A stretch of 33,704 nt of DNA from Minisyncoccota bacterium (lineage in GTDB: Bacteria > Patescibacteriota > Minisyncoccia > Minisyncoccales > JAQTPW01), in NCBI GenBank assembly GCA_028712565.1, contig JAQTPW010000008.1:1-33704 (forward strand), written 5' to 3'. Within the stretch, counting starts at the first letter, position 1, and every line of letters begins with the position of its first letter. The translations under genes were made by a program, and so were the position numbers. Of the stretch, positions 11,546 through 25,847 are shown one piece after another. Below the pieces are notes generated by a model. That model saw only the letters and a program-made list of their open reading frames with translations. It did no database searches and was not told the DNA's origin.

Positions 11546-12968
11546 TTTTTTCTAAAATTTTGCCGATTTTAAAAATTTTTTCTTCTTCAAAATAATTCCC
11601 AATGATTTGCAGGCCAACGGGCAAACCATCGACTTTCCCCGCGGGCAAAGAAATTGCCGGCAGCCCCGCCAAATTGATTGAAATTGTGAAAATATCAGAA
11701 AGGTACATAGTTAAAGGATCTTTTGTTTTCTCGCCGATTTTAAATGCGGGGGTCGGAGAAACTGGAGTCAAAATTGCGTCTACTGATTTGAATGCTTTTT
11801 CAAAATCATTTTTTATTAAAGTCCTGACTTTCTGCGCCCTTAAATAATAAGCGTCGTAGTACCCCGAAGACAAAGTATAAGTCCCAAGCATTATTCTTCT
11901 TCGCACCTCATCCCCGAATCCCCCTCCCCTGCTTTTTAAATAAACATCCAATAAATTTGCATTCTCGTTTTCGTCGGCAACTGAATAACCGTATTTTATG
12001 CCATCATATCTGGCAAGGTTTGCGCTGGCTTCGGCGGGTGCAATTATATAATAACATGCCAAAGCATATTCGGCATTAGGCAAAGAAATTTCTTCAACGC
12101 GAGCCCCCATTTCTTCGTATTTCTTAATTGCTTCTTTTATAATTTTTTCAACTTTAGCATCCATTCCTTTTACAAAATATTCTTTGGGAACTCCCAATTT
12201 TAATTTCCCGATTTCCAAATTTCCGCTTTCAACCTTTGGAATTTCCAAGCTTGTGGAATCCATTTTGTCTTTTCCGGAAATTTCTTCAAAAACAATTTGG
12301 CAGTCATCCACGGTTTTTGCCAAAGGCCCTATTTGGTCCAAAGAAGAGGCAAACGCCATAAGCCCGTACCGAGAAACCGCCCCATAAGTCGGCTTTAGCC
12401 CTACAACCCCGCAAAACGAAGCTGGCTGCCTTATAGAGCCACCTGTATCAGAACCTAGGGCAAAAACACACAGATTTCCGGCTACCGCCGCCGCCGACCC
12501 GCCAGAAGAGCCGCCGGGAACCCTCTTTAAATCGTGCGGATTTTTTGTTGTAAAATAAGCTGAATTTTCAGTAGAACTGCCCATGGCAAACTCGTCCATA
12601 TTTGTTTTTCCAAGAATTACAACCCCCTGATTTTTTAATTTTTTTATAACCGTGGCATCATAGGGGGCTGTATAATTTTCCAGAATTTTTGAAGAAGCCG
12701 TGCATTTTAATCCCTCGACCAAAATATTGTCTTTTATCGCAGCTGGAATTCCAGAAATCATAGAAATTTCTTTTTTTTCTGAAATCTGCTCATCAACTTT
12801 TTTTGCCAGAGATAGCGCCATCTCTTCTGAAACTGTTAAAAACGCAGAAATTTCCTTATCCCTTTTTTTTATTTGGGTTAAATAAGCTTTGCAGATTTCA
12901 ACTGCTGAAAATTCTTTTTTTAAAAGGCCTGTATTGATTTTTTTAATTGTAAGTTCCTCGATCTTCAT
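11538..12968 (-). CDS. gatA: Asp/Glu-tRNA amidotransferase subunit A
   Basis: Glutaminase subunit of GatCAB. It carries the amidase-signature catalytic triad: K79 in AAIKDNI, the cis-serine S154 in GGSSGGSAA and the nucleophile S178 in [12 protein letters not shown], numbers that coincide with those known for Staphylococcus GatA. At 476 aa it is full length. It overlaps gatC by four bases (ATGA). gatB is elsewhere (window start). GatCAB implies that this organism charges tRNAGln and/or tRNAAsn by transamidation. Confidence 0.96.
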
Positions 12969-13255
12969 TTTAAAATTTGCTTTACTTTTAGGAATCCGTC
13001 TTTTGTTTTGGGAGCCAGGTCCTGCAATTTTTTATTTTCATTTTCTTGATTTTCAGCGGCTTTATCTTTTCTTAATACGTTTTCAACTTTTACTGCATGG
13101 CTAGCTGGTTCCACATTTGAAACATCAACTTCTTTTAGTTTCTCAATATAATCCAAAATCAAAGCAAGCTGTTCCTGAAATTTGCCTGTTTCTTCTTCGG
13201 TTAAATTAATTCTCGCCAATTTTGCAATATGTTGGACTTCTTCTTTGGATAGCAT
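12965..13255 (-). CDS. gatC: Asp/Glu-tRNA amidotransferase subunit C
   Basis: Small subunit that wraps around GatA and joins it to GatB. The 96-aa protein opens with [20 protein letters not shown] and has the [19 protein letters not shown] segment; all are typical. It is the first gene of gatC-gatA-membrane protein. Its ATG directly follows a leader array nearly copied at rpoA, with TTATAAA just before the start and no SD. Confidence 0.94.
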
Positions 13256-13344
13256 ACAATTTATAAGCAGATTTACGCTGATATTTACGCTGAATTGCGC
13301 TGAATTTCAGCGTCTTTCTGCGTAGTTATCACGTCTATCAGCTT
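13256..13344 (-). repeat. Leader array upstream of gatC (family B copy 1)
   Basis: Fills the gap from the mreB stop to the gatC ATG. Made of words such as ACGCTGATATTTACGCTGA on both strands, including CGCTGAAATTCAGCG, so it can form a long imperfect hairpin. Aligned by hand with 24649-24742 it matches at roughly 80-85% of positions, in the same orientation and at the same place relative to the start codon. Confidence 0.85.
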
Positions 13345-14397
13345 CTATCTGGGAGGCTCTAATTCTTCGGTCTCAACCAAAACTTCTTCTAACAGATCTA
13401 GATTTTCCAAAACCATGCCAGCTCCCCTGACCACAGCGGTCATTGGATCTTCAATTAATTTTGTCGGCATTTTTGTTTCTTTTGCCACCAATATATCCAA
13501 ACCTCGCAGCAAGGAGCTTCCTCCGGCAAAATGAATTCCCGAAGCCATAATATCGGCCAACAATTCAGGCGGACTCTCTTCTACCGCTGTCTTAATTTCT
13601 GCGACGATTCTTCTCACTGATTTTTCCATTGCCCTCCTGATATCCTCATCAGAAACTAAAATTTCTTCCGGAAGCCCGGTTACTAAATTTCTTCCTCTCA
13701 TGGGAAGTTCTTTTTTCTCTTTCAAAGGGTAGGCAGAGCCAATCCCAATTTTTATTGCCTCGGCGGTTCTTTCCCCGATCAAAAGCCGGTATTCTTCCTG
13801 CGCAAACTGAATTATGTCTTCATTCAATTTGTCTCCGGCAATTCTCAAGCTCTTTGCCAAAACAATTCCGCCCAAAGAAATTATGGCTATTTCGCATGTT
13901 CCCCCGCCAATATCTACAATAAAGTTTCCCCCGGCTTCCTGAACCGGCAACCTAGCTCCAATTGCAGCTGCCATGGGTTCTTCAATTAAAAAAACTTCTC
14001 GGGCGCCTGCTGATTTTCCGGCGTCTACTACTGCTTTCTTTTCAACCTCGGTAACTCCGGAAGGAATTCCAATTATGACTCTTGGCCTTGGATTCAATAG
14101 AAACTTTTTTTTATGGGCTTTTTCAATAAAATATCTTAGCATTTGCTCCGTCACTTCAAAATCAGAAATTACTCCAGCTCGCAAAGGCCTGGTTGCAACT
14201 ATATGGGCTGGAGTGCGGCCTACCATTTTTTTTGCTTCAGCTCCAATTGCCAAAATCTGGCCGGTTTTTTGGTTAACCGCTACAACGCTGGGCTCCTGAA
14301 TTACAATTCCCCTGCCCCTAACATAAACTTCGGAGTTGGCAGTGCCCAAATCAATTGCAATATCTTCTGAAAATAATTTCCAAATTTTATTCAACAT
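13345..14397 (-). CDS. mreB: Rod-shape protein MreB (paralogue 1)
   Basis: Actin-like ATPase directing cell-wall growth. It has phosphate-1 IAIDLGTANSEVYV, phosphate-2 NFIVDIGGGTCEIAII and the adenosine motif ASGIHFAGGSSLLRGLD. The 350-aa length is normal. The C-terminus adds an acidic tail (EEVLVETEELEPPR). A second MreB lies 4 kb upstream (18199-19218); the two differ enough to be old paralogues. The gene follows proS on the minus strand and has a CTAGTAACTAG word leader. No mreC or mreD is in the window. Confidence 0.93.
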   Translation of the reverse strand: MLNKIWKLFSEDIAIDLGTANSEVYVRGRGIVIQEPSVVAVNQKTGQILAIGAEAKKMVGRTPAHIVATRPLRAGVISDFEVTEQMLRYFIEKAHKKKFLLNPRPRVIIGIPSGVTEVEKKAVVDAGKSAGAREVFLIEEPMAAAIGARLPVQEAGGNFIVDIGGGTCEIAIISLGGIVLAKSLRIAGDKLNEDIIQFAQEEYRLLIGERTAEAIKIGIGSAYPLKEKKELPMRGRNLVTGLPEEILVSDEDIRRAMEKSVRRIVAEIKTAVEESPPELLADIMASGIHFAGGSSLLRGLDILVAKETKMPTKLIEDPMTAVVRGAGMVLENLDLLEEVLVETEELEPPR

Positions 14398-19359: not shown

Positions 19360-19443
19360 ATAGAAATTCATTAAAATTTACTCGCTCTGCTCGCGAAATT
19401 CGTTGCAATAAATTTCCATTAATTTCTATTAATTTCCATAAAA
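19360..19443 (+). repeat. Word array in the PEGA leader (family A)
   Basis: Repeats of AATTTCCATTAATTTCTATT with an inserted CGCTCTGCTCGCGAAATTCG; related to the array before gatB. Words on both strands give inverted-repeat potential. It lies between the promoter and the ATG. Confidence 0.7.
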
Positions 19444-21472: not shown

Positions 21473-21542
21473 GACTGTATTCAATTATTTTAGCTCTTCT
21501 TGCAACAAAAAACAAGGACTATTTGCTTTGTTTTTTATTTTT

Positions 21543-21808
21543 TTCTTTAAAACGGGGCAACAAAGTTTTTACGGTAACCCCGTACAAATCTTTCGGGATT
21601 TTACAGGGCAAGCTTTCGCGAAGCTAATTTCTATTAAGCTCCGGAGGACAGTCCTCCGGAGGCTTTACAGAGGACTGTCCTCTGTAAGGCTTGGGCAAAG
21701 CATGGTCCCCGGCCTTTCAATAGAAAGGGCGGGGTTTGCCGTCGAGAATTTAGATAGTCCCGAGTCGCAGGAGTCGGGAACTATCGGTACCTGAAAACCT
21801 TATTACTG
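21543..21808. repeat. Structured direct repeat, copy 1 (with nested palindromes)
   Basis: The 105-nt core 21694-21798 differs at one position from 22424-22528. A 35-nt 5' box (21543-21577) matches 22378-22412 with three changes. Between box and core copy 1 has 116 nt, copy 2 only 11, so copy 1 seems to have gained about 105 nt carrying hairpins. Core hairpins: GGCAAA...TTTGCC enclosing CCTTTC-AATA-GAAAGG, and GATAGT-CCCGA...TCGGG-A-ACTATC. Outer segments GTTTTTA and TGAAAAC can close the structure. A further hairpin with arms TGCCATCCTCC and GGAGGGATTGGCA follows at 21824-21862. No coding content is credible (the plus ORF 21471-21794 is a shadow). I do not recognise a known RNA family. Confidence 0.75.
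21639..21687. repeat. Tandem palindromes with shared core GAGGAC-N-GTCCTC
   Basis: Two perfect 23-nt palindromes. The first has arms CTCCG/CGGAG, the second TTACA/TGTAA, around the same core GAGGACnGTCCTC. They lie in the extra DNA of repeat copy 1. Confidence 0.9.
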
Positions 21809-21965: not shown

Positions 21966-22241
21966 ATGGCTTTGTACAAGAGAACTATTATAAAGGGAGG
22001 AGATCTGAGGCTTATCTGTATTGAAAAATTTGCGAAAGCACTGCAGCACATCGATTTGGTAAAACCGACACCGACACATCCTGACTCCGATACAATTGCC
22101 TGGGAAGTAAAACGGGCACCACTAGATCTTGGTCAATATCTGCTCATAGAGAACACGAATAATACATTAATTCTCACTCTCGTCACGGTAGATAATGTAG
22201 ACAGAATTGAAGAAAAGGAGATTTGCGAAACAACCATTTAG
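21966..22241 (+). CDS. Orphan 91-aa protein between two structured repeats
   Basis: Not recognised. A 91-aa soluble-looking protein with no membrane segment or cysteine cluster (two cysteines only: LICIEKF and EICETTI). A mixed alpha/beta pattern is suggested by MALYKRTIIKGGDLRLICIE and the late strands YLLIENTNNTLILTLVTVD. It is almost certainly expressed: a consensus promoter, a strong SD (AAAGGAGG) 7 nt before the ATG, and a terminator just after the stop form a complete one-gene unit. It is on plus, opposite to nearly all neighbours, and sits between two near-identical structured repeats. Its GC and SD use differ from neighbouring housekeeping genes, consistent with a cargo or acquired gene. 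Toxin, antitoxin or regulator are guesses without motif support. Confidence 0.75.
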   Translation: MALYKRTIIKGGDLRLICIEKFAKALQHIDLVKPTPTHPDSDTIAWEVKRAPLDLGQYLLIENTNNTLILTLVTVDNVDRIEEKEICETTI

Positions 22242-22320: not shown

Positions 22321-22377
22321 ATTTTCAATAAAAAAAACTCGGAAATAGTTTTTCGGTTCCATCCGCAGGCAAATTAT

Positions 22378-22538
22378 TTCTTTAAAACGAGGTAACAAAG
22401 TTTTCACGGTAAATTTCGCAGGCGGCAAAGCATGGTCCCCGGCCTTTCAATAGAAAGGGCGGGGTTTGCCGCCGAGAATTTAGATAGTCCCGAGTCGCAG
22501 GAGTCGGGAACTATCGGTACCTGAAAACTTTAGTTACC
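22378..22538. repeat. Structured direct repeat, copy 2 (three-way-junction fold)
   Basis: Same orientation as copy 1. Segments fold by eye into three helices: closing helix GGTAACAAAGTTTTCA with TGAAAACTTTAGTTACC plus GGTA/TACC; helix 2 GGCGGCAAA/TTTGCCGCC with a 7-nt bulge and inner hairpins CCCC/GGGG and CCTTTC/GAAAGG; helix 3 GATAGT-CCCGA/TCGGG-A-ACTATC. The linker GAGAATTTA is identical in both copies. This copy lacks the nested palindromes and has the better closing stem. The fold is equally possible on either strand, so the transcribed strand is unknown. Confidence 0.75.
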
Positions 22539-23540: not shown

Positions 23541-23891
23541 TTAACTGACTAACTCAATTATTAATATTTGCGCCCCGTCTCCAGATCTTCTCCCTAATTT
23601 TAAAATCCTTGTATATCCCCCGTTTCTATTCGCATATTTTGGGGCGATTTCTTCAATTAATTTTTTTACCAGTTTTTTTGTGAAATATTTTTCTAATTCT
23701 CTCTTGGCTGGCAAATTTTTTGCCTTGGCTCTGGTAATTAATTTTTCGGCAAAAATAGAAACTTCTTTGGCTCTGGCGGCAGTTGCTTTGATTCTTCCCT
23801 TAAGGAAAAGCGCGCTTGCCATAGATTTCAAAAGCGCTTTTCTCTGATCGGTTTTTAAGCTTAATTTTCTACCGCTTTTTCTTTTTCTCAT
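23541..23891 (-). CDS. rplQ: Ribosomal protein L17
   Basis: Large-subunit protein near the exit tunnel. Conserved MRKRKSGRKLSLKTDQRKALL at the N-terminus and GGYTRILKLGRRSGDGAQILIIELV at the C-terminus. At 116 aa it is normal. Its start lies 23 nt inside the end of rpoA, so the two are translationally coupled. Confidence 0.95.
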   Translation of the reverse strand: MRKRKSGRKLSLKTDQRKALLKSMASALFLKGRIKATAARAKEVSIFAEKLITRAKAKNLPAKRELEKYFTKKLVKKLIEEIAPKYANRNGGYTRILKLGRRSGDGAQILIIELVS

Positions 23892-24648
23892 GTTTTTTTT
23901 CAGAAGTTTTTTTCTTTTTTGGCTTTTCTGCAGGTGCAGTTTTTATTTCTTCTTTTTGCGCCGCTTCTTTAAATGTCTCAAATAATAATGTAAAATGATT
24001 CACCAATATTTCTGAAGCTTCATAAAAAGCTTTTTCTGGAGTCAATGTTCCGTCAGTTTCTACTTCCAAAGTAATTTTATCAAAATCTGTCCTCTCGCCA
24101 ACCCTCATATTTTCGAGTTTAAAACTAACCTTTTGGACAGGCGTAAAAATTGCATCCAATGGTATTACTCCTATTTCCAACTTTTCTTTTTTCCTCGCCT
24201 CTCTCGGAGAATAACCTATGCCTTTTTCAATTGTAATTTCCATATCTAATTCGGCGGTCCTTGAAGTCAAAGTCGCAATATGGCAATTTTTATTAATTAA
24301 TTCAACTTGGCTGGGCAACTCCAAATCCGAACCTTTTACCTCCTTTTCTCCTTTTATTTTAATCCTTCCCGTCTGTGGCTCATCGGAAAAAACCTTAAAT
24401 CTTAGCTGTTTCAAATTAAGCATAATAGATATTACATCTTCTATAACTCCGGGTATAGTTGAAAATTCGTGAGCTACTCCCTTTATTTTCATTTGAGTAG
24501 CTGCCACTCCCGGCAAAGAAGAAAGCAAAACTCTTCTTAATGAATTTCCAATAGTTGCTCCGTATCCGGGATATAATGCTTCTATCTCAAATACGGCTTG
24601 ATTACCTTCTTTTTTTACGATTTTTGGCGCGTTTGGTAAAGGTATCAT
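23869..24648 (-). CDS. rpoA: RNA polymerase alpha subunit lacking the C-terminal domain
   Basis: The N-terminal domain that dimerises and assembles the polymerase is intact (EALYPGYGATIGNSLRRVLLSS, GYSPREARKKE, EILVNHFTLLFETFKEA). At about residue 230 the protein changes to a Lys/Glu tail (APAEKPKKKKTSEKKHEK) and ends at 259, where the usual form is about 320 aa with an alpha-CTD that contacts UP elements and activators. rplQ starts inside this tail, so the CTD has not been lost to a frameshift. Its leader is an array that closely resembles the gatC leader. Confidence 0.95.
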   Translation of the reverse strand: MIPLPNAPKIVKKEGNQAVFEIEALYPGYGATIGNSLRRVLLSSLPGVAATQMKIKGVAHEFSTIPGVIEDVISIMLNLKQLRFKVFSDEPQTGRIKIKGEKEVKGSDLELPSQVELINKNCHIATLTSRTAELDMEITIEKGIGYSPREARKKEKLEIGVIPLDAIFTPVQKVSFKLENMRVGERTDFDKITLEVETDGTLTPEKAFYEASEILVNHFTLLFETFKEAAQKEEIKTAPAEKPKKKKTSEKKHEKKKKR

Positions 24649-24742
24649 ATTTTTATAAGCGGATTTACGCTGATATTTACGCTGATCTACGCCGATTTCA
24701 GCGTCTTTCTGCGTTGATATCAGCGTTTATCAGCTTCTATTT
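24649..24742 (-). repeat. Leader array upstream of rpoA (family B copy 2)
   Basis: Runs from the rpsD stop to the rpoA ATG. On minus it begins AATAGAAGCTGATAAACGC and ends CAGCGTAAATCCGCTTATAA, collinear with the gatC leader. The two halves are rough reverse complements, so a long imperfect hairpin is possible. It splits the otherwise tight rpsD-rpoA pair. Confidence 0.85.
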
Positions 24743-25372
24743 TTATCTCGAATAAAATTCAAATATTGCTGTAACTTCAGCTGGCGGCGCGGCTTCTTCC
24801 AAAGTCGGCTCGCCAATCACTTTTCCTTCCAATTTTTCAGCATTTAACTGAAGCCAGCTCGGGGTTTTATAATTTTTTAACAAATTGGGGAGATTTTGGA
24901 AAATAACTTTTTTCATTTTTTGCGGCCTAGGGCAAATTGTATCTCCCTTTTTCACTTCATGAGCAGGCGTATCTATGGAATGCCCATTTATCAAAAAAAG
25001 TCCGTGCGACACCATTTGCTGGGCTTTTGCCCGAGAGCTTGCAAAACCCAATCTAAAAATCACATTATCCAATCTTTTTTCCAGACTTGAAATCAAAGAT
25101 GCCGAAGCATTTTCAACTTTGCCTCGTTTTGTCAAAATCCGCTTGACATAGTTTTTAAACTGCCTTTCATTTAGGTTATACCAATTTCTCAATCTTTGCT
25201 TTTCCATCAATTCTTTACCGTATTCAGAAAGCTGGCCGTGCCTCTTTTTCATTTTTGGCCCGGGAGCATAAGCTCTTCTTAAATAAGCGCATTTTGCGGT
25301 AAAACAACGATCCCCTTTTAAAAAGAGTTTTGTTCCAAATCTGCGGCAAATTTTACAATCAGATTTTTGCAT
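24743..25372 (-). CDS. rpsD: Ribosomal protein S4 (zinc-type)
   Basis: Small-subunit assembly protein. The start is set at MQKSDCKICRRFG (25372), 1 nt past the rpsK stop; the track adds 12 residues that overlap rpsK. Four cysteines C6, C9, C23, C28 form the zinc site of the C+ S4 type. The S4 RNA-binding domain is RLDNVIFRLGFASSRAKAQQ followed by GHSIDTPAHEVKKGD. At 209 aa the length is normal. Confidence 0.96.
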   Translation of the reverse strand: MQKSDCKICRRFGTKLFLKGDRCFTAKCAYLRRAYAPGPKMKKRHGQLSEYGKELMEKQRLRNWYNLNERQFKNYVKRILTKRGKVENASASLISSLEKRLDNVIFRLGFASSRAKAQQMVSHGLFLINGHSIDTPAHEVKKGDTICPRPQKMKKVIFQNLPNLLKNYKTPSWLQLNAEKLEGKVIGEPTLEEAAPPAEVTAIFEFYSR

Positions 25373-25373
25373 A

Positions 25374-25847
25374 TTATACTCTTCTGGTTTTTGGCGGACG
25401 GCAGCCATTATGGGGTATCGGAGTTATATCTTTTATTGCGACAATCTCCAAACCCCTTGCGGCAAAAGACCTGATTGCCGATTCCCTGCCAGATCCAATT
25501 CCCTTGACAAAAACAGATATTTTTCCGACACCAACCTTTTGGGCAATTTGGGACACGGCTTCTGCTACCTTTGAAGCGGCAAACGGAGTGGCTTTTTTTG
25601 TGCCTTTAAAACCAATGGCTCCCGAACTCACCCAGCCCAAAACATTCCCCTGAGAATCAGTTAAGGTAATTATTGTATTATTATAAGAAGAATTAATATA
25701 AACTCTGCCCTCGGTAATTCTTTTTGCGGGAGCTATAGTTTGCGCTATCGGGTTCTTCGTTTCCTTAATCTCTTCGTTCACTTTTTTTGCTTCCTTTCCT
25801 TCTTTTGTTTCTTCTTCACTTTTTGCAATTACGTGTTTTTTTCCCAT
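25374..25847 (-). CDS. rpsK: Ribosomal protein S11 with N-terminal extension
   Basis: Platform protein of the small subunit. The S11 core begins at [20 protein letters not shown] and ends with [17 protein letters not shown]. The first 45 residues or so are a Lys/Glu-rich extension ([19 protein letters not shown]), making 157 aa against the usual 129. It follows rpsM by 9 nt. Confidence 0.96.

Follow-up and report, generated by a model that had tools for sequence, protein, structure and literature searches.

Palindromes before rpoA and gatC as probable gene-less copies of a small GxxExxY nuclease element in a Patescibacteria-like genome

The look-alike palindromes that precede rpoA and gatC in a Patescibacteria-like genome of 867 kb (32 contigs) are probably gene-less derivatives of a small mobile element, the parent form of which would be a GxxExxY gene together with its flanking word arrays. 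Both copies lie in the window, that is, the whole stretch of DNA analyzed, which is the entire contig 17 (C17) with a length of 33,704 nucleotides. According to the proposed scheme, the complete element would comprise one GxxExxY gene enclosed by a pair of inverted arrays, each built of four 8-bp words; with the gene absent, the two arrays would abut and make a palindrome of roughly 90 nt. The copies would settle at sites tolerated by the host, either in the tight spaces between the genes of compact operons or in frame within permissive protein loops. The nuclease would probably act on its own word arrays, either as a DNA duplex or as a folded hairpin, and on the target DNA, with the repair of the break copying the element into the target. 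Both the mobility of the element and its nuclease-driven spread are suggested by the anatomy described below. A broader proposition, which we regard as evenly balanced, is that GxxExxY nucleases with lineage-specific, helically phased arrays form a distinct and widespread class of minimal mobile elements in several phyla, which leave dispersed palindromes lacking the gene and enter essential proteins in frame, with no splicing.

The palindromes in the window and their dispersal in the genome

The first full palindromic element (24652–24741, minus strand) is composed of two inverted four-word arms and fills the gap between rpsD upstream (24743–25408, minus strand; Pfam Ribosomal_S4 and S4) and rpoA downstream (23869–24648, minus strand; Pfam RNA_pol_A_bac and RNA_pol_L), with sequence-model matches at 24654–24696 (plus) and 24696–24739 (minus). 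The second full copy (13260–13348, minus strand; model matches at 13262–13304, plus, and 13305–13347, minus) fills the gap between mreB (13345–14397, minus strand; Pfam MreB_Mbl), the stop codon of which overlaps the element end, and gatC downstream (12965–13255, minus strand; Pfam GatC). As an earlier note made from the sequence had described, the element spans each gap from the stop codon of the upstream gene to a few bases short of the ATG. The resemblance of the two gaps (24649–24742 and 13256–13344), which that note had put at 80–85%, was confirmed and proved slightly higher: in the BLAST search of the same genome, positions 3–91 of the rpoA-gap query matched C17:13260–13348 at E 3e-26, the 89 aligned nt being 89% identical, and the MAFFT alignment was concordant. 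For a 22-nt core common to both gaps, the window contains these two exact occurrences and no other, against 0 expected. The ability of both gaps to form hairpins was likewise upheld, since the rpoA-gap and gatC-gap copies both fold far more strongly (z −7.2 and −5.1) than sequences shuffled with their dinucleotides preserved. A 9-nt direct repeat, ATAAAAATA, was observed at the rpoA copy; none of the other copies that were read showed it.

Each arm follows the scheme (T)A-G/T-AAGC-N-GAT, NN, ACGCNGAT, NNNN, ACGCNGAT, NN, ACGCNGA, i.e., four 8-bp words of the ACGCNGAT type separated by spacers of 2, 4, and 2 free bases, and this spacing places one word per helical turn. In the rpoA copy, arm 1 (24654–24696, plus) reads TATAAGCGGAT TT ACGCTGAT ATTT ACGCTGAT CT ACGCCGA, and arm 2 (24696–24739, minus) reads TAGAAGCTGAT AA ACGCTGAT ATCA ACGCAGAA AG ACGCTGA. 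Two inverted arms make up a full palindrome, and half-palindromes of about 45 nt are also present. TA precedes the AAGC-type end in most arms, and most full copies are TA-flanked at both ends. Across 77 distinct arms, the information content was 1.3–2.0 bits in the word columns, except for the free fifth base, and 0.2–0.35 bits in the spacers; the set was collected by word match, so that the word information is partly built in, whereas the spacer freedom is not. Within one genome, all 32 word positions of the copies can match while most of the spacer bases differ. In 15 full elements, the words of one arm agreed with those of the other at 0.89 and the spacers at 0.14 (0.33 in permuted pairs). 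Thus, pairing in the hairpin is confined to the words, with the spacers unpaired, and covariation of the hairpin was rejected. The low spacer agreement probably reflects a strand-biased spacer composition and was not counted as evidence for selected loops. In addition, short palindromes such as GGTCGCTTCGCTCC were found nested within ACGCTGAT elements of several genomes (L022, L043, and L014), which looks like one small repeat inserted into another.

A census of the genome assembled from searches and sequence stretches placed the palindrome family in at least a dozen places, and about 15 were listed by BLAST; the pair is therefore not peculiar to rpoA and gatC, contrary to what had been supposed. 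The sequence model gave 18 matches in this genome and 19, 7, 49, and 21 in four other genomes of the order. Elsewhere in the studied genome, full intergenic palindromes occur between rplJ and rplL, before groES, and adjoining the 16S rRNA gene, and a copy with one degraded arm precedes a dnaK-like gene (groES, 16S rRNA, and the dnaK-like gene were named by sequence, with no profile used). Over four genomes, 45 copies were located between genes and 7 inside genes; because the latter were recognized via open frames, copies that break a frame would escape this count.

GxxExxY genes between inverted arrays

In the studied genome, inverted ACGCNGAT arms enclose a GxxExxY gene at C12:132596–133109. 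The same arrangement was found at the loci L081 and L066, where two inverted arms about 450 bp apart surround one small GxxExxY gene, which is split into two frames in L066. At the locus L089, from a Falkowbacteria MAG, inverted ACGCNGAT arms likewise flank the GxxExxY gene, with a full palindrome alongside, so that the arrangement is known from three genomes besides the studied one. The arm-enclosed gene was assigned to the family GxxExxY (TIGR04256 / PF13366) of the PD-(D/E)XK nuclease superfamily with E values of 2e-32 to 3e-27 and scores of 95–113 bits over nearly the full profile, the cut-offs being 35 and 22. GxxExxY genes above the cut-off were present in 16 of the 60 genomes of the order and in all five of the element-rich ones (Fisher p 8e-4). 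The catalytic E, D, and (E/D)xK are kept in 61, 62, 62, and 62 of the 63 aligned members; the catalytic residues and the QxxxY motif are nearly invariant (59–62 of 63 loci), and the C12 copy of the studied genome retains D and ExK. Three more GxxExxY genes of this genome (G000 C13:55638, C10:13439, and C12:159016) are accompanied by arrays of differing words. To our knowledge, GxxExxY proteins are curated as a family by NCBI and Pfam with no role assigned, and a limited literature search returned incidental mentions only, with no paper on their function or on a tie to flanking arrays or mobility. No sequence match to the nuclease was found in the PDB, and its AlphaFold model, built from two sequences only, had a pLDDT of 43.

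The association of GxxExxY genes with inverted arrays was not limited to the ACGCNGAT words, and other members are flanked by inverted arrays of ACGAAT, ACACAGAT, TGCGAAT, ACTAAT, and more. When the upstream flank was scored against the reverse-complemented downstream flank, the median for 47 GxxExxY genes from Patescibacteria-rich samples was 26, compared with 10 for random window pairs and 12 for mispaired flanks, these two serving as the controls in place of every short gene of the genomes. The scores of 43 of the 47 genes exceeded the random 95% point of 15 (p 7e-24). The recurrence of 6-mers in the flanks peaks at 10, 12, and 21–22 nt, distances close to one and two turns of the helix. 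Among the 18 GxxExxY genes sampled from the phylum Elusimicrobiota, 15 lie between inverted arrays (p 5e-12), so the association extends over several phyla. On plasmids of cultured bacteria, a clear array of the CACAGAGGACACAGAG type was seen at one of five GxxExxY genes, in Bacteroides finegoldii; the other four were without one, and thus the link between gene and array is not universal. Nuclease similarity tracks word similarity over 63 loci (Mantel r 0.25, p 0.001), and words are shared by 61% of the nuclease pairs more than 50% identical, against about 10% of the less similar pairs (about 6–19%).

The conserved words, drifting spacers, and helical spacing have the look of a DNA-binding site, and the words follow the lineage of the nuclease. 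The arrays could therefore be binding sites (operators, chromosome-organizing sites, or DNA-uptake sites) of a host protein or of the GxxExxY protein, spread by duplication and recombination, with the nuclease merely one of the regulated genes. We consider this account unlikely, since the presence of the arrays is patchy, the strict element pattern being matched by 7 genomes out of 380 in the phylum, mostly in the studied genome (0 for the reversed control); several word families exist within one genome; and units of gene plus arrays inside LepA, RecG, and GatB point to the insertion of a unit. For the array flanks themselves, a role as operators of the nuclease gene could be an alternative. 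Among the Patescibacteria, the named carriers belong to Jorgensenbacteria, Parcubacteria, Magasanikbacteria, Taylorbacteria, Uhrbacteria, Falkowbacteria, and Nealsonbacteria; carriers beyond them are Elusimicrobia and Omnitrophota. Presence and absence were compared between families only, and most of the genomes were metagenome assemblies.

Insertion sites between and within genes

The gap between rpsD and rpoA varies among the genomes of the order in which it could be read. It is short and empty in some genomes, e.g., G019. It holds palindromes of ACGCNGAT words in the studied genome and in G038, as well as, by coordinates, in G033, and palindromes of unrelated words in others: ACGAAT in G036, AGCGTCTAG in G045, and AGAAATTA in G004 and G039. 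Because the gap is empty or filled with unrelated palindromes in other genomes, it looks like an insertion-tolerant spot rather than a conserved leader, and no feature particular to this repeat is conserved there. The earlier note had offered two readings of the rpoA and gatC gaps, of which the mobile element was supported and the leader with shared regulation was not. As a shared cis-regulatory leader, the hairpin would be an RNA regulator (an attenuator or a protein-binding leader) co-opted for both genes, in agreement with the strong folding, with the copies directly before start codons, and with the copy before rpoA in three element-rich genomes (the studied one, G033, and G038). However, other copies are situated after stop codons, beside 16S rRNA, and in frame within coding sequences, and the full copies, as palindromes, show no strand preference. 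This scatter regardless of start codon and orientation is what the earlier note itself had named as a refutation. The variable content of the rpoA gap and the unpaired spacers also count against it, and the conserved 5′ position with a pairing-supported structure that is expected of a cis-regulatory RNA leader was not found. Rfam returned only two tRNAs in the window and no family for the palindromes, so a riboswitch or another known RNA family was rejected as well. Taken together, a common leader is distinctly improbable, and such repeats should not be read as shared leaders.

Copies of the putative mobile element were also found in frame inside genes. In the studied genome, these are genes for a Mur ligase (insert peptide FSVDQRRYQRKSASI), threonyl-tRNA synthetase (ThrRS; IEADKRESTLI), a DegT aminotransferase (FSVNQRNNQRQSAST), Elp3 (IEADKHRMTAQK), and an O-antigen ligase. 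In the alignment, the host ThrRS is seven residues longer at the insert than the solved ThrRS, and the C domain of the Mur ligase exceeds its profile in length. The DegT aminotransferase gene with its half-element (L009, G000 C12:60533–63575) contains a second in-frame repeat, REAEARYGEAKARLREAEARYGEAKARLRDDASARQAG. O-antigen ligase-like genes from two families of the order, L010 (G000 C6) and L298 (G038 C12), have an in-frame element, which sits in both after apparently the same transmembrane segment.

Whole GxxExxY genes with their arrays occur in frame inside LepA, RecG, and GatB, in two genomes each, as well as in a glycosyltransferase and in the C half of a transketolase (the RecG, glycosyltransferase, and transketolase hosts were named from sequence). 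The LepA host aligns with the solved LepA (2ywe) on either side of a 160-residue insert located between residues 68 and 72, and the GatB host aligns with 3al0 on either side of a 145-residue insert between residues 204 and 208. No splicing domain or intron was found at these insertions, and since the frame is open through the nuclease, they are most simply explained by insertion within the host protein. The nucleases are no closer to each other within the LepA site (0.57) or the RecG site (0.52) than across sites (0.51–0.60), which suggests that these two sites were hit independently, as tolerant loops. Vertical descent of all same-site insertions is thus unsupported for LepA and RecG. The pair of nucleases in GatB is specifically related (0.69 versus about 0.3), which is consistent with descent or homing. 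Strict homing endonuclease genes, each invading a single allele site, would fit this pair and the fact that LepA, RecG, and GatB were hit at the same site in different genomes; the scattered palindromes would then be unrelated debris. Nevertheless, strict homing is very improbable, given the similarities at LepA and RecG and the fact that the palindromes share words and spacing with the gene units.

Relation to known systems and further repeats

Among known phenomena, the closest likeness is to the Rickettsia palindromic elements, for which in-frame insertion into many genes has been described (PMC10969869). In both cases, small palindromes lie between genes and in frame in unrelated genes, with several families per genome and in a bacterium with a reduced genome (PMC10969869). 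The elements described here differ in length (about 90 or 45 nt, compared with ~150 nt), in their phased words with free spacers, and in the link to a nuclease gene; the likeness is one of anatomy, and homology is not claimed. As in MITEs, the gene-less derivatives share their ends with a gene-bearing parent, whereas the parent gene here encodes a PD-(D/E)XK nuclease, not a transposase, and no defined target duplication was seen at the copies read. Homing endonuclease genes, inteins, and group I introns are similar in that a small nuclease gene occupies conserved sites of essential genes; unlike inteins and group I introns, the insertions here are without a splicing domain or intron. The small dispersed intergenic palindromes also resemble REP/BIME-type repeats and, like these, are tied to a nuclease-type gene that has the same repeats on both sides, but their movement by RAYT (REP-associated tyrosine transposase) is scarcely credible, as no Y1 transposase (PF01797) was detected in the studied genome (5 of 14 control genomes score), the repeat architecture is different, several copies are intragenic, and the partner gene is a PD-(D/E)XK nuclease.

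If the preferred reading of a nuclease-bearing mobile element is true, GxxExxY proteins would gain a testable role, as proteins encoded by a minimal mobile element that ends in phased word arrays, and coding palindromes of the RPE type would have an identifiable parent. It would also be a candidate explanation for the odd short insertions that conserved proteins carry in ultra-small bacteria. The intact nuclease domains within LepA, RecG, and GatB would then mean that essential proteins tolerate selfish genes in their interior, which is unusual.

Several further matches were set aside. In the MAG UML_A.mb.15 (JAHJXD contigs, L047–L107), a repeat of roughly 138 nt is bounded by inverted ends that terminate in TA, TAGTT...TGTGTAAAAATT / ATTTTTACACA...AACTA. 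It is present about 30 times in nearly identical form and carries within it a half-element belonging to the ACGCTGAT family; the 30-odd matches are therefore one half-element riding in this repeat and were not taken as independent copies. The single match in a viral sequence (L109) and those in Burkholderiaceae, Streptomyces, Halomonas, and Gemmatimonadetes look like chance in GC-rich DNA, with no further words. A phage or plasmid origin of the element was rejected, as there was no phage match and no viral relative.

A second palindrome family with a like architecture, built of ATTAATTTC words with a 10-nt period, was located in the window by pattern search at 640–741, with a further copy at 19360–19439. 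The pattern gave 18 sites in the genome, compared with 0 for the reversed-pattern control, and the family occupies about ten places there; no matching GxxExxY gene was identified for it. The window also contains a 109-nt sequence present twice with 98% identity (21694–21802 and 22424–22532), about 730 nt apart, beside which lies a 39-nt repeat (21539–21577 and 22374–22412), with a small ORF (21966–22241) in between.
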